A stretch of 64,000 bases of DNA from assembly GCA_033065855.1 (NCBI GenBank), contig JAVXUO010000948.1, forward strand, positions 34,302 through 98,301. Direction: 5' to 3'. This document shows, one piece after another, positions 9,801 to 54,625 of this stretch (positions are counted from its first letter, which is position 1; each line of letters opens with the position of its first letter). This DNA comes from Escallonia rubra. Lineage: Eukaryota > Streptophyta > Magnoliopsida > Escalloniales > Escalloniaceae. Below the pieces are notes generated by a model that was not told the origin of the DNA, made no database searches, and worked only from the letters and a program-made list of their open reading frames with translations. The translations under genes and the position numbers were made by a program.

Positions 9801-12800
9801 AAAGAGGAATAAATTTATTGTTTAAGAACTGGATAACTTATGTAGACTTGAAATATTTGGTGTAAATGGAGGGGAGGGGGATTGATGCTTTTGACCTGGG
9901 TCCACTACAATTAAAGTTAGAAACTCCTAAGTTTCCTTCGTTATAAGAGGTTGGTCTGGACCTGAAGTGTTTCTAGATTTTTTCCTTTGCTTAGGATGCG
10001 TACCTGAAGAAGGGGAAGGAATTTTTAATTGGCTATATTTGTTGTCACTGCCCTCATAACCTGTATGATGATGGTTATTGTTATTCAGTCATGGATGAGT
10101 GTATTGATTTCTGGAAATAATTAATAACATTCAATTGCTGTTAATGTTTCTTTTTCTGCATCCCTTTCCGCTATGACAGAACTCCTTTCCTTTTGGTTTT
10201 AGATGACATGGTTAATTGGATTTTGCTTTGTCCAGCTCACGCATCAATTCTATTAGGACTGGCATTTGATATTGCTATTGATTGAGGTGGCATGTGGCAG
10301 AGAGGTTTTGTCTTGAGTGATTTCAATGGGAATAACTTTTTATGTAGCCTGCTCGGAGCAAATAACTGGCTTTGTTTATTTCAAAACGTTTGCTTATGGG
10401 ACCTCTTTGCAGCATTCTCTTCTCCTTTTCCCATTCCCTTTTTTTGGGAAATCCTGCCACAGTATCTATCTGTTACTATCTGATCTGGACTATGAAGCGC
10501 GCGTTCTGTTCTCGTCAATCATCATTTTATAATTTATCATGTACCCCATCCTAACCACTAGCTCAAGTTCTGTACCCGTCAGTCATCACTTTTTTAACTT
10601 ATTATGCGCCCTACCCTGTAGGGTTAATAGGGAAGAATTTTTACTAGGCCATAAGAGTGCTACCAACTACTATTTATTAGGACACTGTTGTTCGGTTTGA
10701 ATTAATGCTTAGGAGATTATGGTCCATAGCTTACGCCGCGTAACTTGGTGGCCTCAAGTTAAGTTGAGTTAGAACAGAGTCTGCAACAATTAGAAGAATT
10801 TAGGAAGTGGAAGCTCCATGCTTAATTGAATCTGAAAGTAGTCAAATATTTTGTTTGGTAAGGTATTTCTCTTGAGTTTTGATTTGCCGGTGAATGTTCT
10901 ACATGAACTTAGGTTGTTGCTAAGGGCACATTCCAGATAAATGCTGCTTTACTTGAAAAATGGCTATGGAGGTATATGCACAAAACCAGCTCCCTGTGGG
11001 AAAAAATTCTGACGGGAAAGTTAGGGGGTGGTGCCGAGGCTTGCTCCCCATGTGTGGTTTTCAGAGCTCATTGCTCGAGTTTATGGTTGGGCGTTGGTAA
11101 GTGGTGACAATGGTAAAAGAAGCACATCTGTTCATCCTTTTTTCCAGTTGGCGAGGGTAGACTGGTTCTTTTCTGGAAGGATATATGCTGTGGTGATGAA
11201 AAGCTATGCAAGTCTTTCCTGATTTTATTAGCTGTCGCAATGAATGTTATTGATTTGATTTCCTTTACCAGGAATGTCTATGTTTGGAGTCCTCTTTTAA
11301 GAAGGAATTTCAACGACCGGAAACTGGGTTCAGTTTTTTTTTTGTTTTTTGAGCGCATTCAGTCTGATGCTACTCCTCAAGGCGAGGAAGTTCGGATGTT
11401 ATCGAGTGGATGTAATAATATCCTAAAGATAGAAATAATTAATAATAAACGTAAAATATGCCTGTGTATTTCGCGTATCTTGCACAGATGGAATTTTTGT
11501 TAAAAGCTAATCTTTTGTTGGTTACTGTTTCTATGTCCCCCTGTTCTCTTCTTCTATGAGATGCTTGTTGTCTTGTTTTCTACTCTTGAACTGTTTAATA
11601 GTTTTATATTTTCGCTGATGGGCTAACTGAACTACTGGTAACAACAGATGGTGGTGGCGGCAAGGGCACATGGGGTAAACTGCTTGACACTGGTGCTGGT
11701 GAATCTCATATTGATCGAAATGATCCGAACTATGACAGTGGCGAGGTAATTTCCACACGTGAATTCAGTTTATCTTTCTGCATTTTTTATCAGGCTAACC
11801 CGTTCTCAGGAGATTCCTCCTTTGCTTGGTTAATTTATGTACTGTGTCTTTCTGTTTCCGGTATTATGCCTCATTTACTATCACCATCTAAGTGTTCTCT
11901 TGCCCACATATTCTGCAGGAACCGTATCAGCTTGTTGGATCAACTGTATGCGATCCCTTGGATGATTACAAGAAAGCTGTTGTTTCCCTAATAGAGGAAT
12001 ATTTCAGCACGGGTGATGTGGAAGTGGCGGCCTCTGACCTCAAGGAATTGGGGTCAAGTGAATACCACCCTTACTTCATAAAGAGGCTTGTCTCCATGGC
12101 CATGGACAGGCATGACAAGGAGAAGGAAATGGCTTCAGTTCTTCTTTCAGCATTGTATGCTGATGTCATCAGCTCGCCGCAGATCAGCCAAGGGTTTTTC
12201 ATGCTTCTTGAATCTGCTGATGACCTCTCGGTGGACATATTGGATGCTGTTGACATCCTTGCTTTATTTATTGCTCGTGCTGTGGTTGATGACATCCTCC
12301 CCCCAGCTTTCCTCACAAGGGCAAAGAAATCACTGTCGGAATCCTCCAAGGGATTCCAAGTTCTTCAAACTGCTGAGAAAAGCTACCTCTCAGCTCCCCA
12401 CCATGCAGAACTGGTAGAGCGGCGGTGGGGAGGTAGCACCCATGTTACCGTCGAGGAAGTCAAGAAGAAAATTGCATACCTTCTCAGGGAGTATGTAGAG
12501 AATGGAGACACTTCTGAGGCCTGTAGGTGTATTAGGCAACTTGGGGTCTCATTTTTCCACCATGAAGTTGTGAAGAGGGCTTTAGTTCTAGCCATGGAGA
12601 TCCGTACAGCAGAAGCGCTCATTATGAAGTTATTGAAGGAGGTGGCCGAGGAGGGTCTGATAAGTTCTAGTCAAATGGTGAAAGGGTTTTCTCGGTTTGC
12701 TGAGAGCCTTGATGACCTTGCTCTTGATATCCCATCTGCAAAAGAGTTGTTTCAGTCATTGGTTCCCCAGGCAATCTCTGAAGGGTGGCTTGATGCATCA

Positions 12801-13703
12801 TTTTTGAAGTCCTCGAGTGAAAATGGGGAGGTACAGGACCATGAAAAATTGAGGCGGTACAAGGAAGAGGTGGTCACGATCATTCATGAATATTTCCATT
12901 CAGATGACATTCCTGAACTTATTCGGAGTCTTGAAGATCTTGGGGCACCTGAGTTAAACCCGATTTTTCTGAAGAAGCTGATAACACTTGCCATGGATAG
13001 GAAGAACAGAGAGAAGGAAATGGCTTCTGTTCTGTTATCTGCACTTCATATCGAGATCTTTTCAACTGACGATATCGTCAATGGTTTTGTCATGCTTCTG
13101 GAGTCTGCAGAAGATACTGCACTTGATATTCTAGACGCTTCTAATGAACTTGCACTATTTCTGGCCAGGGCAGTCATTGATGACGTCTTGGCTCCGTTGA
13201 ATTTAGAAGAAATTGGCAGCAAGTTGGCACCAAATTGCAGTGGGAGTGAGACTGTGCACGTGGCTCGGTCGCTTATAGCTGCTCGTCATGCTGGTGAAAG
13301 GATTCTGAGGTGCTGGGGAGGTGGTACTGGCTGGGCCGTGGAGGATGCAAAGGACAAGATAGTAAAGTTGCTAGAGGAATATGAAGCTGGGGGTGTTGTC
13401 GGCGAAGCTTGCCAGTGCATTCGTGATCTTGGAATGCCCTTTTTCAATCATGAGGTCGTGAAGAAGGCCTTGGTGATGGCAATGGAGAAGAAGAACGATA
13501 GGATGCTGGATCTTCTGCAGGAGTGCTTCAGCGAGGGACTCATCACTATCAATCAGATGACCAAAGGCTTTGCCAGAATCAACGATGGTCTCGATGATCT
13601 GGCCCTCGACATTCCAAATGCCGAGGACAAGTTCAGGTTTTATGTCGAGCACGCCAAGAAGGGAGGGTGGATCCTTCCTTCATTTGGTTCGGCAGATGTT
13701 TGA
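6823..13703 (+). CDS. MRF: MA3 domain-containing translation regulatory factor (MRF / PDCD4-like)
   Basis: Coding exons 6823-7054, 11648-11745 and 11919-13703 join in phase (GT-AG introns) to give 704 aa, close to the length I recall for Arabidopsis MRF proteins (about 700 aa). The start ATG lies in AAAATGGCG context. After a low-complexity N-terminus come four MA3 domains, roughly at residues 127-245, 290-405, 427-545 and 590-700. Each carries the helical repeat signature, for example EYFSTGDVEVAASDLKELG in domain 1 and the LDDLALDIP motif in domains 2 and 4. Domains 1 and 3 resemble each other, as do 2 and 4, indicating an old duplication of a two-domain unit. MA3 domains in PDCD4 and eIF4G bind the helicase eIF4A. 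Plant MRFs associate with the translation machinery in the cytosol and are linked to TOR and energy status; one is known as an EIN2-interacting protein (ECIP1). The 4.6-kb first intron holds an internal duplication (see findings). All four MA3 domains lie on one exon. Confidence 0.95.
7055..11647 (+). other. Large intron 1 of the MRF gene, with an internal tandem duplication
   Basis: No exon or TE with clear ends is visible. Two halves share diverged blocks in the same order: 7400-7480 with 9240-9305 (both with the AGCTTTAGAC...TTATGG block), 7490-7590 with 9690-9800, and 8750-8890 with 10330-10480 (GTAGCCT.CTCGG and CATTCTCTTCTCCTTTT blocks). The pattern indicates an ancient tandem duplication of about 1.6-2.2 kb within the intron. 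Confidence 0.55.
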
Positions 13704-28315: not shown

Positions 28316-28996
28316 CTAAAACTGATCAAACAAAGTCACATTTTCAACGCGATCGGCCTTCAACTTCGAGAGAGAGATTAATCTCGTCATTAGCATTTTC
28401 ATGGCATCTGAATCATCGGTAGCAAGCATAGCACCTGCAATGCTCACCATGCCAGGGTTTTGGCTATTGAACACAGAGAAAACAGTAGCCAACTCGAAGC
28501 CAAAATTCACGAAGTAATGAAGCAAGCCCCTTGGAAACACGTAGACATCACCTTCTGCAAGAGTCCTCTGGAACAACTGGTTATTGCTATCCATGAATCC
28601 AGCAATCACCACGCCTTTGCTAACAAAGCACATCTCGGTAGCCCTGGGGTGAGAGTGTGGCAATACCTGGCCATCCAATTCTATGTCGGTTCTGGCAGTC
28701 GATAAGCCTAACGTGTTTAGGCCTGGGAAGTCCGCTGCAGTGACAACAGTGGTGGATGAGCCGAAAAAATTTCCCGTGTCACCTTTCTGGTTTAGTAGCG
28801 ATGTTTTGAAATCTGAAGCAGTCACGTTGGCCGGATTCTTGCATGGGAGGCCGTTGATGAACGTGGTCTGTCGCGGGGATATGTCTGTCGGGCACATATC
28901 CTGGATGTTACCACTGTCCACTGCCAAGGACAGCTTAGTGCAAATGTAGAGAAGTACTACTGAGAAGGTGCTGATCAAGAGAACACAGGACTTCAT
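28316..28996 (-). CDS. Germin-like protein
   Basis: Intact 226-aa single-exon ORF. Residues 1-25 form a signal peptide (hydrophobic core VLLISTFSVVLLYI, likely cut after SLA), so the protein is secreted to the apoplast. Cys35 and Cys52 are the conserved N-terminal disulfide pair. Germin box 1 reads LPHSHPRATEM, giving manganese ligands His114, His116 and Glu121; box 2 reads GDVYVFPRGLLHYFVNFG, with the fourth ligand His160. N-glycosylation sequons are visible at N57 and N219. Family members are hexameric cupins; some are superoxide dismutases or oxalate oxidases, others have no known activity, so the reaction cannot be assigned. It stands alone here, although germin-like genes often occur in tandem arrays. 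Confidence 0.95.
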   Translation of the reverse strand: MKSCVLLISTFSVVLLYICTKLSLAVDSGNIQDMCPTDISPRQTTFINGLPCKNPANVTASDFKTSLLNQKGDTGNFFGSSTTVVTAADFPGLNTLGLSTARTDIELDGQVLPHSHPRATEMCFVSKGVVIAGFMDSNNQLFQRTLAEGDVYVFPRGLLHYFVNFGFELATVFSVFNSQNPGMVSIAGAMLATDDSDAMKMLMTRLISLSKLKADRVENVTLFDQF

Positions 28997-29045
28997 CTTG
29001 AAATATATCTTCTTCTCTGTCTTAATTTATTTTACACATTGTTGA

Positions 29046-33322: not shown

Positions 33323-33327
<5 letters not shown>
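31802..33327. other. Spacer with C-rich tract and possible minus-strand orphan exon
   Basis: 32650-32830 is a strongly C-rich (CCCCCA)-type tract. Just right of it, on the minus strand, a GC-rich stretch from about 33010 to 32924 ends at a good donor (CATCAAG|GTATGTC) and could be a 5' exon, but no downstream partner exons are convincing. I leave it uncalled. Confidence 0.3.

Positions 33328-33366
<39 letters not shown>
33328..33366. repeat. (TA)n microsatellite
   Basis: Uninterrupted TA dinucleotides immediately before a dispersed repeat copy; unlike other TA tracts in the window it does not hold a foldback element. Confidence 0.9.
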
Positions 33367-40600: not shown

Positions 40601-41675
40601 TTAGTATATTAAAACATGTGAGCACCTTATTGCTTCATACAAAATGTTTCTTCAGGTATTTTTATGATATATCTCTTAAGCCTTGTCTTCCAGTGGGAAT
40701 TTGGAGCTTTCAGCAAAATGTTTTCAAGATTTGATCTTAAAAGATCAAAACCACCCTGCTGCTCTAATTAACTATGCCGCCATTCTTTTGTGCAAATATG
40801 GTTCAGTTGTTGCAGGTAAGAATATGAAATATTCATACATACAGTTTGATTTCCATTATATTGTGGCTTAAATTTCTTATCCATTAAGAAATAAATGCTA
40901 CCTTTGGATTGCCTTTTTTGTGTTTCCGCAAAGATGAAGAAGATTCCTTGTCAGAAAAAATAAAAACATGTATTAACTTGTTTGGATACCATTTTCAGAG
41001 TATTATAGAGATGAAATTTAGTTGATTGTGATCTAAAAAATGAAATCACCTCTATCTCCTTTGGATAGACCTTTATAAGTCAAACCGAAATTTAGTTGAT
41101 TGTTATCTAAAAATTGAAATCACCTCTATTTCCTTTGGATAGACCTTTTTAAGTCAAACTGAGTGGGGTGAACGCCAAGAGGGGTTGATAATACATCGGT
41201 AATAAGTTGCTGAATAGTGCTTGAATATGATGTTTGCTGGAAAGAGAATATTAAAATGTTAAGCAAACACAACCACTAAGGAAACGCGAAATGAAAACAA
41301 TGACAAGGCTTTTTAAAAACAAGCTAAGTAATACATTAAAGGGCCCAGCTCTTCCAATTTTTCAGGTGCTGGGGCAAATGCGAATGAGGGGGCTTCCGAG
41401 GAACAAGTGACTGCAGCCAGTGTTGCGAAAGAATGCCTGTTAGCTGCTGTAAAATCAGATCCTAAAGCAGCTCACATATGGACTAATCTTGCTAATGCAT
41501 ATTCTATGATTGGTGATCATAAAAGTTCTGGCAAGTGCTTGGAGAAGGTGCTCATGACTCATTGCTACAATTTTCTGTTCACTTCTTTTTGAGGTTACAC
41601 ATATGTTGTCTTCTTCTTCTTCTTGTTTTCTTTTTCTGCACATATATATACATACATATATACACACATATATGT

Positions 41676-41706
<31 letters not shown>

Positions 41707-43681
41707 GGGAGCTGATCCATTGTTAGCGCTAGCAACTTAACCCAAGTTGTTAGCGCGATCTGGCCGCCACGTGCGAGAATGGACGGCCAGATCGCGCGCC
41801 ACGACCGCCATTTTTTTCACCGTCCGCTACATAGTGTAGCGGACGGTAAATTATCGTCCACTACATAATGTAGCGGATGGCCAGATCGCGCTAGCAACTT
41901 GCTAGCGCTAGCAATGGATCACGACCCATATATATATATATGTATTCCTCTTAGGTTTGTAACAATGCGGAGTCTTTATTCGCGGATTGTATTTTTCTAT
42001 GAGGTTCTATGGTCCTACCTTCATAACAGGGAGGTCATAGTTTCCTCCCGATTGTCGTGCTACTTTTGCTTGTTGTCTTGTCATTGGCTTATATGTTAAT
42101 TTTTATGCTTCCTAGGCAGCAAAACTGGAGTCCAATTGTCTGGCCACCAGATATGCTGTTGCTGTTCACAGAATCAGGGATGCAGAAAGGTCTCAAAATC
42201 CCAGTGAACAGCTTTCGTGGGCTGGAAATGAGATGGCTTCTTTACTTCGAGAAGGAGATTCTGTTCAGGTTGAGCCTCCCATAGCATGGGCAGGGGTTGC
42301 CATGGTTCACAAGGCTCAACATGAGATTGCAGCCGGTTTTGAAATTGAAAAAAATGAATTGATGGAGGTTGAAGAGCGTGCTTTGTGCAGCTTGAAGCAG
42401 GTTAGAAACTGTCACCAGAACATCCCAACTGTAGTTTGAAATCGATGCATAGTACTTCATTTCTGATTAGGGTGAAGTTTCTTGGGCATGTGCCCAACTG
42501 TCTCGAACATGTAAAACAAAATGTTGGTCATCACTCAAATCGTAGGTTGATTTATATGAAAAAAAAAATGCTATTGAGATGCTCTTTTGCAATCACTCGA
42601 ATTGGGCATATGTCGTCTGATATGAGTTAGGTCGTGCTAGTACTCGGCACACCTGGTATTTAAAATGGAGGGTGACTATGACCTGGCTGTGGCTTTGACC
42701 TAGTTCGTGTAATACTATAGACTGTTTTATCATCTGAAGGTCATGAAAGAGGTCATACGATATTTTAGTTTTATACTTATGTCACAATGTGGTTAAGTAT
42801 CTATCCATAACGTATTATGGGGAAAAAGTTTAGTCTTTGACAAATTCAAGTTATACATAAAGGACACATAACTAAAACATTTGAAATGTTCTCGAAACAT
42901 CATATCTGTTTGCTAAGACTTCTCAAACATGGATAGGGTAAATGTATTGCTACGTGGATAGTGATTCCTTCATATAATACTCGATGGAGATGTGGGCTTC
43001 ATATTGAAAGCATCTCATGGCCATTGGTAGTATTCTAATTTATTCCATTTTGCACTTTCCAAATCAGGCGATAGCTGAGGATCCAGATGATGCAGTTCAG
43101 TGGCACCAACTTGGCCTTCATAGGCTATGTTCACGACAATTCAAGACATCACAAACATACCTTAAGGCTGCGATTTCCCGTTTTACGGACTGTAGTTATG
43201 CATGGTCAAATCTTGGTATCTGCAGCTTCATTAAATTATCGAGTGTTCTAAACTGTTTTCTCTTGGTACTTATAGTTCCGTGCTTGATACTTTCTTGGAC
43301 TTGTGATCTTAATGTGCATCACTAGGTATCTCGCTGCAGCTATATGAGGAGTCATCTTCACAAGCTGAAGAAGTTTATAAGCGTGCATTGTCATTAGCGA
43401 CAGCTCAACAGGCGCATGCCATATTTTGCAACCTTGGAAATTTATACCGCCAACAGAAGCAAAACGATTCTGCCAAGGCGATGTTTACAAAGTCACTTGA
43501 ACTGCAGCCTGGTTATGCTCCTGCATATAACAATCTAGGGCTGGTTTTTGTCGCCGAGGGTCGGTGGGAAGAAGCCAAATTCTGCTTCAGTAAGGCGCTT
43601 CAGGCAGACCCGTTGCTGGATGCTGCCAAATCCAACATGATTAAAGCAACGGCCATGTCTAGATTGTGTACAGGTACCTGA
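34601..43681 (+). CDS. Tetratricopeptide repeat protein (At5g63200-like)
   Basis: Ten coding exons join in phase: 34601-34822, 36245-36337, 36423-36524, 36627-36794, 36874-36962, 40694-40815, 41366-41547, 42116-42400, 43068-43215 and 43326-43681, giving 588 aa. A non-coding first exon probably ends at 34079, with the acceptor at 34594-34596 just before the ATG. The acidic/serine-rich N-terminus (1-74) is followed by TPR-like helices: HAHFILGLMYQRMG (near 87-100), VWNTLGMILVKTG (180-192), NLDCLGNLGIAYL (about 211-223), AHIWTNLANAYSMIGD, DAVQWHQLGLHRL, and the classic pair NLGNLYRQQKQNDSAKAMF / AYNNLGLVFVAEGRWEEA. Such repeats scaffold protein partners. Annotation of relatives as SPINDLY-type GlcNAc transferase reflects the TPRs only: no glycosyltransferase domain is present. 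The reading ends MSRLCTGT; CAG|GTACCT at 43671-43679 could be a splice donor, so the true C-terminus may be longer. Introns carry a Helitron with a hAT element and a TA-flanked element. Confidence 0.9.
39026..39832 (-). mobile_element. Mini-Helitron with CTAG end, in a TPR intron
   Basis: On the minus strand the element begins TCCATACTACTTATAAAGAG and ends CTAG (39026-39029). It lies between A (39833) and T (39025), as Helitrons require. An 8-bp-stem hairpin (39038-39056, GCACATGC/GCATGTGC with a GAT loop) sits 8 nt inside the CTAG end. Without the nested hAT element the Helitron is only about 200 bp and codes for nothing. It lies in the intron 36963-40693. Confidence 0.75.
39193..39808. mobile_element. 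hAT-family MITE, 600 bp, perfect TIR and 8-bp TSD
   Basis: Element 39201-39800 has exact terminal repeats TAGGGGTGAGC / GCTCACCCCTA and identical flanking octamers AACAGGGC (39193-39200, 39801-39808), the hAT signature. The subterminal regions are packed with GGTTCGGTTTGG-type motifs in both orientations, a pattern expected of transposase-binding repeats. Identical TSDs suggest a fairly recent insertion. It is nested in the Helitron. Confidence 0.9.
41707..41927. mobile_element. TA-microsatellite foldback element A (Micron-like)
   Basis: A 221-bp inverted-repeat element in an intron of the TPR gene (between 41547 and 42116). Ends: GGGAGCTGATCCATTG and, in reverse complement, GGGTCGTGATCCATTG; both continue into TAGCGCTAGCAA and GCGCGATCTGGCC. 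Left flank is a CA/TA microsatellite, right flank TA repeats. The middle holds two near-palindromes around GTAGCGGA (41820-41846 and 41854-41880). It is non-coding and pairs with copy B at 52781. Confidence 0.8.
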
Positions 43682-44837: not shown

Positions 44838-44876
<39 letters not shown>

Positions 44877-48900: not shown

Positions 48901-50762
48901 TAGACGTTGGGATGCTTGTCGTGATCTCATGGTTATTTTTGTTTTTTTACATGATGAAATTAATCAACTATGTAAGGCTTATGACATTAGTATGATATGT
49001 ATTTTGTACGATTTATCGATAATTAAATTATTTTACAAACAAAATCATGTTTTTTTAGGATCATACATTCTTAATCTTTGTTAGAATCATCACAAATTAG
49101 TATAAGGGTATATACGTAACCATAGTATAAGGGCATATACGTAACCATGTGTCTTTTCTTTTCTTTTCTGCTTAACTCACAAACAAGAGAAAAGAATGAT
49201 ACTTTCTTTTCTCTCTTAAACTCACAAACAAGAGGAAGGATAATTGTTTTCCCTTCTCTTCCTTTCTCTTCTTTTCCCTTCTCTTCTTTTCTTTTCTTTT
49301 CTCTCGTCTCAAAACTCACAAACAGGCTATACATGTATGCCATGACTTACAGGTTACACCATGATAAGTAGTACGCAATACGCAGCAATATTCAAGTGCA
49401 GCCAACAGTTAAACAGTAGCTTACTTCGCAACACCAGGCCGGAGGGGCAGCAACTTTTTCTCAATGAGGGCCATAAATAACTCTGTCTTTCGTTTGTGAA
49501 GCGAAGCTATAAAACTCTTTCTTTCTTCTTCGCTCTTTGGAGCGTTTTCTGGCCAGCCCGTCTTATTAAAGTAAGCAGTCATCCTGAAAACACAGACCAA
49601 GCACTGAAACTTAACCCAAGCAAACTTTACAAGAAAGCAGAATCCAGGTTGCATATAGACACACTTAAGTTAACCTTCCATGTTCCGAAAGCATCAACTT
49701 GAATCTATGGCAGCCATACATAAAGTTATGTGGCTGTGCCTTAAAATAGTGTATGTTCCACCCTTGTGAAGCCACAGAACTGCCATTAATATGGTTCACA
49801 TTTATGAACAAAGTACATCGTCCTAAAATTAGAATACTAGTTTTCTGAAAAACAAAAGTACCTTTCTTTTCCACCCCCAATTTTGAGCAGTTCACCATAC
49901 AAGTCCACATCCCAGGAAACACCCAATTCTTTCTGTGTAATCAATTTGAAGTACGTGATCAGCCCAAACTTACACCCAGGCATTAAACTACAAACATGAA
50001 GGTAGTTGCATTAACATACAAACTTTGAAACAACCCATTTCAGCAAACATCAAATTACTTCAAAAGAAAATGAAAAAATAATGGCATAAAAGTACTCTCA
50101 AGTTTCATACTTTTTGTCCTCTTTGGCTTTTTGCACGTTTCTAGAATTGAATTAAACTATCTAACCATCGAATTGAACTCTCATACAACGAGTAAAGTCA
50201 ACATTTACATGTATACATTCTATTTTAAGAATTGCAAAAGGTCAAACCGAACAAGAATTAGGAAAATGAGGAAGTATCAACAATTGCAGTACTGAATGAA
50301 CCTGCACTAAATGAAAAGGAAAAAAAAAACCATTTCACTAGTGGATAACACTAGAGTTTATAGCCTCCACACAAACGATTTAGCAAAAGAAAGAAACAAA
50401 GGACAAAGAGTGAGCGAGTGTACTTCGGCGAAAGTGTCGTTGAAAGAGATGCGATGGCCGTCCTTCTCCGTGTCAACGAGCACTCCATCACAGTCAAACA
50501 GAAGTGCGGACGGCACAACAGAAGAAGCGGACGAGCATCTGGTGGCGCCAGTCTTGCTGCTCTTTCTATCTTCAGTCAGTTGGCTTGTGCTCCTACTCGA
50601 AACACTCCTTTTGATGCTTATTCGTCTACCCAAGAAGGAACACGGTGGGTTCCTCGCATTGCGCCAAAGGGTGGAGGGAACAGAGGCTTTTGTGCGGGAG
50701 CAGAGGCTTGCTGTTGAAGAAGAAGTCGGAGAAAATGATGCGGCAATGGCCGTTGAAGACAT
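45979..50762 (-). CDS. CBBY: CBBY, xylulose-1,5-bisphosphate phosphatase, chloroplastic (HAD family)
   Basis: Exons 50424-50762, 49862-49932, 49425-49583, 47674-47740, 47198-47293, 46875-46921, 46577-46657 and 45979-46102 join in phase to 327 aa, near the Arabidopsis length. Residues 1 to about 80 are Ser/Thr/Arg-rich and poor in acid, a chloroplast transit peptide. HAD motif I is LLFDCDGVLVDTE (nucleophile Asp90, acid/base Asp92); motif II VAVCSTSN (Ser206/Thr207); motif III VPRKKPDP (Lys241); motif IV VVIEDSG (Glu265, Asp266). The cap region GGGKERMTAYF matches CbbY. The enzyme hydrolyses xylulose-1,5-bisphosphate, a by-product and inhibitor of Rubisco, to xylulose-5-phosphate in the stroma. 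The gene converges on the TPR gene. Intron 3 holds an inverted-repeat element; two TA-flanked foldback elements sit upstream of the promoter. Confidence 0.95.
48524..49327. mobile_element. Inverted-repeat element in CBBY intron 3
   Basis: The left end GCCTCTTTGCGAGTTTT and the reverse complement of the right end GCCTGTTTGTGAGTTTT are imperfect TIRs. Inside each, further GTTTGTGAGTTT motifs are embedded in AGAGAAAAG (left) or CTTTTCTC (right) purine/pyrimidine tracts, so the whole 800 bp can fold back. TA or TAC abuts both ends, which leaves the target duplication ambiguous (Tourist/Harbinger-like is possible). No transposase is visible. Confidence 0.6.
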
Positions 50763-50853
50763 TGGGCTCTCGCGCTAGCTAGCTCTGATCAGTTTCTCGT
50801 TTCCTGAAGCTTTGATTTTAATGGCTCCTGTCGATAAACACATCCACACAAAT

Positions 50854-50863: not shown

Positions 50864-51218
50864 CCCCCTACCAAAATTGGGCTGTTTTCGCACTTTTAAC
50901 TCCTACCTTTCATCCTTTTACGTTCTATTTAGGTTTTTATTTAAAAACAAAAAAGGCATGCGGTGATTGTCTTCAAAATTCTAGATGTTCGAAGGTTGGC
51001 TATTGAGCATGTTTTTTTTTTTCTTTTTTTTGCTCTTGTTATGGTTAAAACTGTAATTTTATATGGTCAGTCAGTATATAATTGTAACCAGCAACTTGGG
51101 GCTATCTCTCGAGATCTCTGTCATTTCTCCTACCTTGGGGACTATTAAGTTTGGTTTAGTACTTAAATGCTCAAAGAGAATTCTAAAAATTTGCAAAGAT
51201 CAAAATTTATATATATAT

Positions 51219-52736
51219 AGCGCATGCAAAATAAGAGATCTTGCAAACGCGATCTGGCCGTCCATCCTGAAAGATTTACGGCCCAGATCGCGCATTTTTC
51301 GAATACTCTCAGTCGTATGCGACACTATGTCGCGGATGGACTTTTTTACATTTTTGCCCCTCCGCCCGTCCACTACATTGTATCGCGGACTGTCCAAATC
51401 TTTTTTTTTACGTTTTTTTTAAGTTCGTTAGCTACATAATGTAGCGGACGATTTTTTGACAAAAATACAGTCATGTTCCATCCGCTACATTATGTAGCAG
51501 AGGAGTAGGCAACACTATTTTTTTTTCTGTTGCGCATTCTGAACCATCATTATCAGCACCCATCTTTCCATCAATCTGCCGCCACTGTCTTCACACCCAC
51601 CCACACACACACCCATTAGCACACACATCACACGTTTGCCAGTCGCGCCCCCACAACTACACCTCCGTCAAGCGCAGACCCACGGCCTACAGCGGCCACC
51701 AACAAAGACGGTGGTAGTTCGAGAAGATCACGATTGTCGGACTTTATCTTAGGCACAGAGACGGTGATAGTTTGAGAAGATCGGTGCCAAGCACGTCATC
51801 GTCGGTGATGTATGGGTCGCTAATTCGATGGTGATGATCTTGTCGTGGCGTCGGGCCTGAGAGTCCCCGCCTCCGGCATAAGGACGTCCGCAGGCAGTGA
51901 AGAGGCAGTCAAATCTTCATCTTCTCCGACGAGGAAGCCGACGGATCTGGTAGAAGGATCAAATCCAGAGGTCTTCTGCGCCGACATTGACGACTTCGGG
52001 TCCTAATGCTACTCCCCTCTCCTTCTTTTTTCACACACAGGCGCACCAATCCCCTCGCCCTCACCTTCTCACGGCAGCCATGGCTGCTTACCCACGAACC
52101 CATCACTGTATCTGATTAGAGCCGGAAGCGGAGCTGCCTTCCTCCGTCGTCACCGGAAGCGGAGCTGCCTTCCTCGGTCGTCGCCGGAAGCGGAGCTGCC
52201 TTCCTCCGTCGTCGCCAGAAGCGAAGCTGCCTTCCTCGGTCGTCGCGCGCCAAGAGGCTTCCTCTTCCCTTCGGTTTCTGGCATGGACGAGAGAGAGAGT
52301 CAAAGAGTTAATTAGAGAAAGAGAAAACGATGATGAGAGAGATGAGAGAGAAAGGAAAAATGTCAGAACATTAAATGAGGAAAATGAGAGAGAAAGAGGA
52401 AAAAGTCAGAAGATTAGTCCGCTACATAATGTAGCGGAAGGAAGCTAGAGGGTATTTTTGTCAAAAAATCGTCCGCTACCATACTTAAAAAAAACGTAAA
52501 AAAAAATATTTGGACCTCCGCGATACAGTGTAGCGGACTTGAATGCTGTCCGGGAAACAATGTAGCGGAAGGGGCGGAGGGGCAAAAAGGTAAAAAAGTC
52601 CATCCGCGACATAGTGTCGCGGACGACTGACAGTATTCGAAAAAGGCACTATCTGGGCCATCCATCTTTCAGGATTGACGGTCAGATCGCGTTTGCAAGA
52701 TCTCCTATTTTGCTAACGCTCTCGACGGATCAGCTC

Positions 52737-52738
<2 letters not shown>
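51219..52738. mobile_element. TA-microsatellite foldback element C, 1.5 kb, long TIRs
   Basis: TA repeats flank both sides. The left arm (51219 to about 51500) and right arm (about 52415-52738) are inverted copies of about 280-320 bp, sharing AGATCTTGCAAACGCGATCTG, a tract of T with TACGTTTTTTTTAAG, and several GTAGCGGAC near-palindromes. The right terminus reads, in reverse complement, GGGAGCTGATCCGTCGAGAG, like the end of elements A and B; the left copy lacks these outer roughly 20 bp. The GC-rich centre (51540-52320) has no recognisable protein. It lies upstream of CBBY. Confidence 0.75.
52122..52245 (+). repeat. 31-bp tandem repeat, four copies
   Basis: The unit starting CCGGAAGCGGAGCTGCCTTC repeats at 52122, 52153, 52184 and 52215 with few changes. 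A unit of 31 is not a multiple of three, so it does not suggest coding. It lies in the centre of foldback element C. Confidence 0.9.

Positions 52739-52780
<42 letters not shown>
52739..52780. repeat. (TA)n microsatellite joining foldback elements C and B
   Basis: Forty-two bases of pure AT/TA repeat are all that separates element C from element B. Confidence 0.95.
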
Positions 52781-52782
<2 letters not shown>

Positions 52783-53002
52783 AGCTGATCTACTGGTAGC
52801 GCTAGCAACTTAACCCAAGTTGCTAGCGCGATCTGGCTGTCCACGGGCGAGAATGGACGGTCGAATCGCGCGCCACAACAACGAATTTTTTCACCGTCCG
52901 CTACATAATATAGTGGACGGTGAAAAAATTGTCCGCTACATTATGTAGCGGACGGCCTAACAACGCTAGTAACTTGCTAGTGCTAGCAGTGGATCATGAT
53001 CC
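52781..53002. mobile_element. TA-microsatellite foldback element B (Micron-like)
   Basis: A 222-bp element, almost the same length as element A and closely similar throughout: GGAGCTGATC start, TAGCGCTAGCAACTTAACCC, GCGCGATCTGGC, two GTAGCGGAC near-palindromes (about 52893-52921 and 52929-52957) and a GATCATGATCC end. TA repeats flank both sides. Confidence 0.85.
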
Positions 53003-54625
53003 ATATATATATATATATATATGTGGGAAACATTAAACAATTGACAACAATCATATTTCAACTTTCTGTAATCAGTAATACGGGTTAAAAGTACATGTCT
53101 AAATCACAAGACACGTCATACGCATATCACGTTTTGATTATGACAAAATTAGTATTATTAGATATCCTCTAATCAGACGAGATCATCTCCTTCCAAGTAG
53201 CTTTCGTGATCAAACCCTAGTGGGAGAAGATAGCCTCTCCTTCTCATTATAATTACTCACACCAGCGCTAGGGTAAGGTAAGTTTTTTTGATCCAATTTA
53301 AAAGTTTTCATACTCTTTTTGAGTTTTTGCTTCTCATGCTCTGACCTAGGCATAGGAGATTCCTATCAGATCTTCATTTGGCAAGTCACCGTTATCCATT
53401 TTGTGTTATGTAGATCTGTTCCTTAGCTCGTTATAAATACTCGCATGAATAATAATATTGCATGCAACTATGGTTTAGTAACACAACCAACATATTAATA
53501 CAATGTACTGAACAAAAATATACATGCAACTATGGTTTAGAATCTGAATTTTAGGATTTATTTTGTAAACGAATCATAAAATCAAGTCTAAATTGTTTGT
53601 AATTTTATTTCTTCATAAATTTGATAATCAAATTAGTAACCGTCTCTCTTTTCCTTTCCTTCTTGTGCAAGTGTGTTCTCTCTCTCTCACAACACCTTTT
53701 TTTCCCCCTTGTTTGTGGTACCAGAATAATGTTCAAAAAGTAAAATTATTACTTTTTATGTTACCTAAATTTCAAAAAGAAAAAGTTTTCATCTTAAAAG
53801 TTAATATTTAGCAGTGCTTATTCACACATTACTTTAAGATCAATTATGGCGCTCTTATCAAGTGGTTGAGAAATGCTAAACACAACCTCTATCTTTTACT
53901 TTTTTTTGGGTACTAAAATGTATTTTAAAGACAATTCTAACTTTTTAGCAACAACAAAAAAATCATATAAAGGGGCGGTGTTCAGTGTGTGTCACGATGG
54001 CCAAAGAAGGGGGCTTTGTGTGGGATGTGTGTGTGTGTGGGGGGGGGAACGTGTTTGTGTGTTGATCTGTGTGCGGGTGGGTGATGGGTTTGAGGGGGCG
54101 TAGGGGGATGAAAAAAAAAAGTTAAAAAATGGTTTTGGTTTGAAAATTTAGTGTATAAAAGGGGTGGTTATGACATTTCAACAGGATTTGTTACGATCCG
54201 TCCAATGTGCGCACTTTCAAGGAGTACACGTAGGTTTAGTGTAACTTTTTATAGAAGACGGGGCTATATCGCTCTCGGCATAGTACATAGATCTGAAGTG
54301 CATTTACCCCAACATCGAAAGCTTTGGATAAAGTACTGACCATAGTCTGGCGCGTAATAGTCTTTGTTGAACGCGTCATCCTGATCCCTTATCTCAAAGT
54401 CATCCGTCTTATCGCTTCCTCTGATTTTCGATCAATCTTCATAAACCAGGATGTAATGAAAAAGTAGACAAAATGAAACTTTGTGAGTATTGTTTGATTC
54501 TTCAGAGTGAGGGACAGAGAGAGAAATTTCAAGGTACTTGTGTTTGCACTCCAAAGTTTGGATGATGTGGCTGTCAACTAAGATATCTTAATGAAATGTC
54601 CATTTTAACCTTAAAATTATAACAG
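53003..54625. other. Gene-poor spacer
   Basis: AT-rich DNA with a GT-rich patch (about 54020-54070). No supported gene. Confidence 0.4.

Follow-up and report, generated by a model that had tools for sequence, protein, structure and literature searches.

The window analysed here, a 64,000-nucleotide stretch of the Escallonia rubra genome (contig JAVXUO010000948.1, positions 34,302 to 98,301 of the forward strand), holds three foldback elements that we designate A, B and C. C and B lie next to each other across a TA microsatellite, and A is located 9.3 kb from this pair. The features are, in window coordinates:

41698-41706: the 9 bp on the left side of A, ATATATATA, bounded by a CA run
41707-41927, plus strand: element A, a 221-bp sister copy of B
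41928-41941: TA run adjoining the right end of A, 14 bp
51208-51219: TA run adjoining the left end of C
51220-52738: element C, a 1519-bp foldback element, putative non-autonomous MULE
51220-51501, plus strand: left inverted-repeat arm of C
51502-52417, plus strand: interior of C, 53% GC
52121-52246, plus strand: 31-bp tandem repeat within C, 4.1 copies
52418-52738, minus strand: right inverted-repeat arm of C, with the intact terminus GGGAGCTGATCC, read inward
52739-52780: TA tract linking C to B, 42 bp of pure TA, (TA)21
52781-53002, plus strand: element B, a 222-bp foldback element, putatively non-autonomous
53003-53022: TA run adjoining the right end of B

An earlier sequence-only reading of this DNA had described C and B as elements of 1.5 kb and 222 bp joined only by a TA microsatellite. 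The junction is indeed pure TA over its whole length, and the sizes are refined to 1519 and 222 bp; by homology B starts one base earlier, at the T of position 52780. The same reading had placed the pair about 450 bp from the ATG of a CBBY gene, in good agreement with the ~458 bp that separate C from the putative CBBY start codon, which was read by eye in ORF 50358-50774. Because this ORF gave no Pfam match, the CBBY name rests on the sequence-only reading and on a visible DCDG motif. In pineapple, microsatellite-inserted copies are described as having no or negligible effect on the expression of nearby genes (PMC8449440), which lowers the expectation that C or B affects CBBY. Elsewhere in the window, positions 11892-13703 contain a 603-aa open frame with MA3 domains that looks like a normal host gene, the minus strand at 28316-29026 contains a 236-aa cupin (germin-like) open frame, and a 74-bp unit is tandemly duplicated at 41013-41159 with 94% matches. 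The window has 33 ORFs of 120 aa or longer; a scan of 25 of them, in which a split gene could be missed, detected no MULE domain. Rfam returned no matches, A matched no plasmid, and exact-string scans of genome contigs and viral contigs gave none either. A viral contig (L001) matching the palindrome described below was discarded, all of the matches to the elements being short (25 bases or fewer).

The left and right arms of C align with 243 matches over 335 columns (90.7% of ungapped columns), and the left arm lacks the ~20 outermost bases that are present in the right one. In a fold of C with RNA parameters, run without a shuffled control, arm pairs with arm; the DNA fold of B reaches -66.6 kcal/mol, with a z-score of -10.8 relative to shuffled sequence. 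A and B match at 187 of 224 alignment columns. The terminal 95 bp of C, taken from the right arm and read inward, give 66 matches over 101 columns with the left end of A and 62 over 99 with that of B, and each of these two alignment scores was equalled by none of 2000 dinucleotide shuffles. The palindrome TCCGCTACATNATGTAGCGGA occurs eight times in the window at up to three mismatches, every time within A, B or C, and did not appear in 100 shuffles. These alignments and the confinement of the palindrome uphold the claim that C and B are related foldback elements. The accompanying idea that B is a minimal form of C is too simple: B and C are sister subfamilies whose resemblance lies mainly in their ends and in common palindromic modules.

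C had also been thought to carry a GC-rich cargo. Its interior is indeed richer in GC than the window (53% versus 40%), but it is not unique. A search with C of the assembly of the window's own genome (566 Mb, 3222 contigs) gave 3291 first-look candidates, and among the 40 that were scored both the arms and pieces of the interior match other genome copies at up to 95%. Nothing in the interior exceeded a curated Pfam cut-off, all matches in the ten ORFs scanned, out of 21 listed, falling below it. The possibility that C recently captured a unique host gene was therefore rejected, given that the Pfam matches of the ten ORFs scanned are all sub-threshold and that pieces of its interior recur in other copies.

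All six flanks of A, B and C adjoin TA runs at least 9 bp long, while alternating TA runs of this length make up 187 of the 62,039 bases outside the elements, or 0.3% of the window. The nominal probability of three out of three insertions in such runs is 2.7e-8, a value that assumes uniform, independent insertion, and C and B share a tract. Two long TA tracts, at 33327-33366 and 44842-44873, contain no recognised family member and are possible empty targets. When the same genome was searched with B, 1463 first-look candidates were obtained, of which the best-scoring 40 were scored; the 39 loci retrieved hold 40 aligned B-type copies, which represent the best matches and not a random sample. 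Among these best-scoring copies, a TA run at least 8 bp long is found at both flanks in 32 of 40, at one flank in 7 and at neither in 1, compared with 10 of 160 control stretches taken ~150-250 bp away. For C, right ends were sampled from the first 20 matches reaching C base 1517 or beyond (71 bp each, two matches that stopped short of this base being skipped), and all 20 adjoin a TA tract. Most of the best-scoring copies are thus TA-flanked, as in TA-targeted MULEs of the MuTAnT, SaTar and Ac-mMITE kind. The proposal that the elements target TA microsatellites is borne out by both samples; as to whether every copy sits in TA repeats, most scored copies do, and a single one has neither flank in TA.

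The arrangement of C and B is also found at other loci. At 4 of the 20 sampled C-type right ends (L094, L098, L101 and L107), a second family end, as judged by eye, directly follows the TA tract, which makes the C-TA-B arrangement a recurrent one. Among the 40 B-type copies, 10 have a facing family end no more than 150 bp away across an A/T-rich tract. Uninterrupted arrays in the A/B/C family thus include B-type pairs, C-type right ends and two pairs of an element and a MULE (see below). These data bear on the origin of the C/B pair itself, which shares terminal sequence and palindromes and could on that basis have arisen by tandem duplication of one locus. This origin was rejected as extremely improbable, because C and B are unequal in length and their sequences diverge, with 62 of 99 columns matching over the terminal 95 bp, and family-end pairs across TA tracts recur elsewhere. 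Two B-type loci have unusual structures. L037 contains two copies in opposite orientation whose inner ends overlap and whose TA tracts lie only on the outer sides, and is either an exception to the array pattern or a rearrangement. At L028, the left end of the B-type copy carries what seem to be several tandem copies of a TAGCGCTAGCAACTTAACCCAAGTTG unit.

Target-site duplications in the MULE superfamily are 8-11 bp long. Within a TA tract, whether the two flanks match in phase allows an odd or even duplication length to be inferred, with the exact length not directly accessible. Flanks were therefore compared for matches at odd or even lengths from 4 to 14 bp in the 23 of 40 B-type copies with both termini legible, the other 17 being dropped. 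An exact 9-bp flank repeat was observed in 14 of the 23, a further 4 have a 9-bp repeat with one mismatch, and exact repeats of 8 or 10 bp were found in none; indeed, no even-length match between 4 and 14 bp was seen in any legible copy. A copy with a 9-bp match usually matches at further odd lengths as well, so that no unique length emerges within TA tracts. The same is true in the window, where the ATATATATA on the left of A is identical to the first 9 bp on its right and the flanks permit a duplication of 3, 5, 7 or 9 bp only. The sole copy outside microsatellites, L014, has a perfect flank match, TTTAAGTAA, at 9 bp only, as expected for a MULE. In the remaining five legible copies (L019, L034, L035, L043 and L045), the flanks differ from a 9-bp repeat at 2 to 9 positions, two of the copies mismatching at all nine; in L035 (TA/TG) and L045 (TG/TA), TG repeats are confined to one side. 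L014 and most of the legible copies thus place the A/B/C family within the 8-11 bp range of MULEs, with 5 of 23 departing. The flank data are consistent with a duplication of 9 bp, without singling it out, and in most copies they speak against a length of 8 or 10 bp.

The phase of the flanks also helps to weigh two other accounts of the TA tracts. The first holds that there is no target preference: the elements would have inserted at ordinary AT-rich sites, and the tracts would be made by the elements themselves or by later slippage. The flanking tracts are indeed long and variable, and post-insertion tract expansion has been reported for maize TAFT-type elements. However, most legible copies have flanks that are in phase with each other, and L014, the only copy at a non-microsatellite site, shows no expansion. 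We thus regard this account as unlikely, but tract expansion may add to an initial TA preference. The second, proposed in the SaTar paper (PMC5907723), is that circular intermediates carrying microsatellite filler recombine homologously into TA tracts. That paper argues from unlike microsatellites on the two sides of an element, and here L045, L035 and L034 fit a 9-bp duplication poorly; moreover, a filler of constant odd length could mimic the 9-bp pattern. Set against this are the exact 9-bp repeat in 14 of 23 legible copies, the lack of even-length matches in all of them and the textbook 9-bp duplication of L014 at a non-microsatellite site. Recombination of circles is accordingly judged improbable, although the five copies that break the simple 9-bp rule leave room for a second insertion route.

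Candidate autonomous partners were sought by searching the same genome with the Pfam MULE domain PF10551. The search gave 3309 candidates, and each of the 150 that were scored exceeded the cut-off; the 20 loci returned form two sequence clades of ten. In one of these clades the palindrome is found near the transposase. Sequence of ~9 kb was retrieved around ten places (eight palindrome-clade loci and two of the other clade), and additional downstream sequence was retrieved for all eight palindrome-clade loci; M numbers follow the loci, M70 being L070 plus its downstream stretch, and so on. The terminus of C matches the 5' ends of these MULEs at 74-85% in seven of the eight loci and at 68% in M75. 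The match starts at the first base after the TA run in six of the eight, whereas in M75 it starts 13 bases past the run and in M71 the left end is irregular. Six loci also have a match at the 3' end, of 68-87%; for M73 and M74 the far inverted (3') end was not found within the stretch retrieved. The region of C matching full-length MULE ends, at 68-87%, comprises its terminal ~140-204 bp. Five of the eight loci have both inverted ends between TA runs, spanning 9.0-13.0 kb with end-repeat identities of 88.7-98.8%:

M70: full-length MULE of 10.8 kb, end repeats 93%
M72: full-length MULE of 13.0 kb, end repeats 88.7%
M77: full-length MULE of 9.4 kb, end repeats 98.8%
M76: full-length MULE of 9.2 kb, end repeats 97.6%
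M75: full-length MULE of 9.0 kb, end repeats 97.4%

M77 is the only one of the five with an odd flank phase, read at the last legible base; the other four (M70, M72, M75 and M76) have eroded ends and an even flank phase. The 782-aa ORF of M77 contains FAR1, MULE (PF10551, 1.6e-33) and SWIM domains, and a plant mobile domain (PMD) is encoded in separate ORFs antisense to the transposase. PMD similarity was detected in all eight palindrome-clade loci. As an observation in its own right, the PMD lies on the strand opposite the transposase in these TA-flanked MULEs at 8 of 8 loci (L070-L077, L080-L087). In two cases a short element is linked to a MULE by a TA tract only, a B-type element in M74 and an A-type element in M75. 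These TA-flanked MULEs with matching ends are relatives of autonomous type and the likely autonomous partner of the short elements. The interior of C, on the other hand, has no match within the eight loci, indicating that C shares ends but not interior with them and is not a plain deletion derivative; that origin was rejected for the MULEs sampled. The two loci of the other clade contain no TA run of at least 10 bp and no match to A, B or C. This second clade is abundant and has uninterrupted frames of ~777 aa (L051-L054, L056-L061, L078 and L079). Along 5.9 kb, L078 matches L079 at 99.3%, which suggests recent amplification, and offsets between the alignments point to tandem copies of ~312 bp upstream.

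The terminal repeats of C are common to elements encoding a PF10551 transposase, a mark of membership in the MULEs. This bears directly on the suggestion of the sequence-only reading that A, B and C belong to a distinct superfamily sharing merely the target choice of Micron. Short strings from the elements, when looked up in the literature, matched only papers on other subjects and no paper on the elements themselves, as judged by title and abstract. The suggestion is nevertheless contradicted by the ends shared with PF10551-carrying MULEs and by the 9-bp duplication, and Micron itself is placed in the MULEs in the SaTar paper (PMC5907723), which weakens the idea of a family distinct from Micron. 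A separate superfamily was rejected on the basis of the end match and the duplication, and we consider it very unlikely.

In our view, A, B and C are, with high probability, non-autonomous members of a MULE family that inserts into TA microsatellites, with the transposase likely supplied in trans. This interpretation draws directly on the observed target preference, common ends, duplication phase, multi-copy state and arrays, and on the TA-flanked MULEs with matching ends. From these we infer a functional transposase, transposition in trans and an order of insertion, as follows. The 9-13 kb relatives would supply in trans a transposase combining a FAR1 DNA-binding, a MULE catalytic and a SWIM domain, which most likely recognises the common ends (GGGAGCTGATCC...). 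The enzyme would excise an element and reinsert it, duplicating 9 bp of the target, and the TA tract would normally conceal this duplication. Because every insertion leaves TA on both sides, the tract would remain a target and arrays would build up, with elements piling up side by side and none interrupting another; C-(TA)21-B would be one such pair. A bolder picture, offered tentatively, is that the full-length members of this TA-targeting MULE family carry a PMD gene of their own, a possible counter-silencing factor, while swarms of non-autonomous elements dock in self-renewing TA tracts and form modular arrays. PMD-carrying MULEs and a speculation about anti-silencing have been described (PMC5418596, PMC8616336), and the retention of the PMD in full-length members makes that speculation testable.

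Elements of this kind are already known, since MuTAnT, SaTar, Ac-mMITE, TAFT and Micron have been published, and the notion that A, B and C form a family apart from known kinds is not supported in view of MuTAnT, SaTar and Ac-mMITE, all described as TA-targeting MULEs. MuTAnT of Medicago truncatula (PMC4486113) comprises foldback MULEs that lie in TA microsatellites and have duplications of 9 nt; copies outside microsatellites with such duplications are a minority (14 of 218), and precise duplications within microsatellites are said there to be hard to determine. Like MuTAnT, the family described here consists of short foldback elements with modular inverted repeats in TA microsatellites, has variable terminal Gs and includes a full-length relative (PMC4486113). 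The published terminal mask of MuTAnT, GGGGTTTGCTAGAACA, differs from GGGAGCTGATCC, and its full-length relative AutoMuTAnT, with a mudrA-like transposase similar to Jittery, is 4.9 kb long with a single ORF, whereas the full-length members here are 9-13 kb long and carry a PMD (PMC4486113). SaTar elements, described from guayule, rice, sorghum and citrus, form uninterrupted arrays joined by microsatellites (PMC5907723). By description, they resemble the present family as TA-flanked non-autonomous MULEs, from a few hundred bp up to 1900 bp long, in microsatellite-joined arrays, accompanied by larger TA-flanked MULEs with similar ends, but guayule SaTar duplications are given as 10 bp compared with 9 bp here (PMC5907723). 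Also compared by description, pineapple Ac-mMITE-1 and -2 (210-270 and 510-570 bp) are two sister subfamilies with common ends, TA targeting and clusters linked through TA tracts, and their duplications outside microsatellites, 9/10 bp, are a further likeness; the pineapple study reports finding no autonomous element, unlike the situation here (PMC8449440). Rice Micron and maize TAFT insert into TA microsatellites as the present elements do, a likeness drawn from their descriptions, and Micron-like elements are reported to be widespread in Poaceae and Rosaceae (PMC12550479). The PMD was first described in a rice MULE, according to PMC5418596, which reports MULE-PMD transposase fusions in several grasses and Amborella; in M77, by contrast, the PMD is encoded in separate ORFs on the opposite strand. 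What we describe is therefore chiefly a new family belonging to a known kind, compared by description with SaTar, Ac-mMITE, Micron and TAFT, for which a likely parent transposon has been found. The TA-targeting MULEs thereby gain a further multi-copy family from plants, together with its likely autonomous partner. The additions to what is known of them, though modest, are the recurrent arrays, the PMD-carrying full-length relatives and the TA-phase test, by which the length of a duplication within a microsatellite can be inferred.
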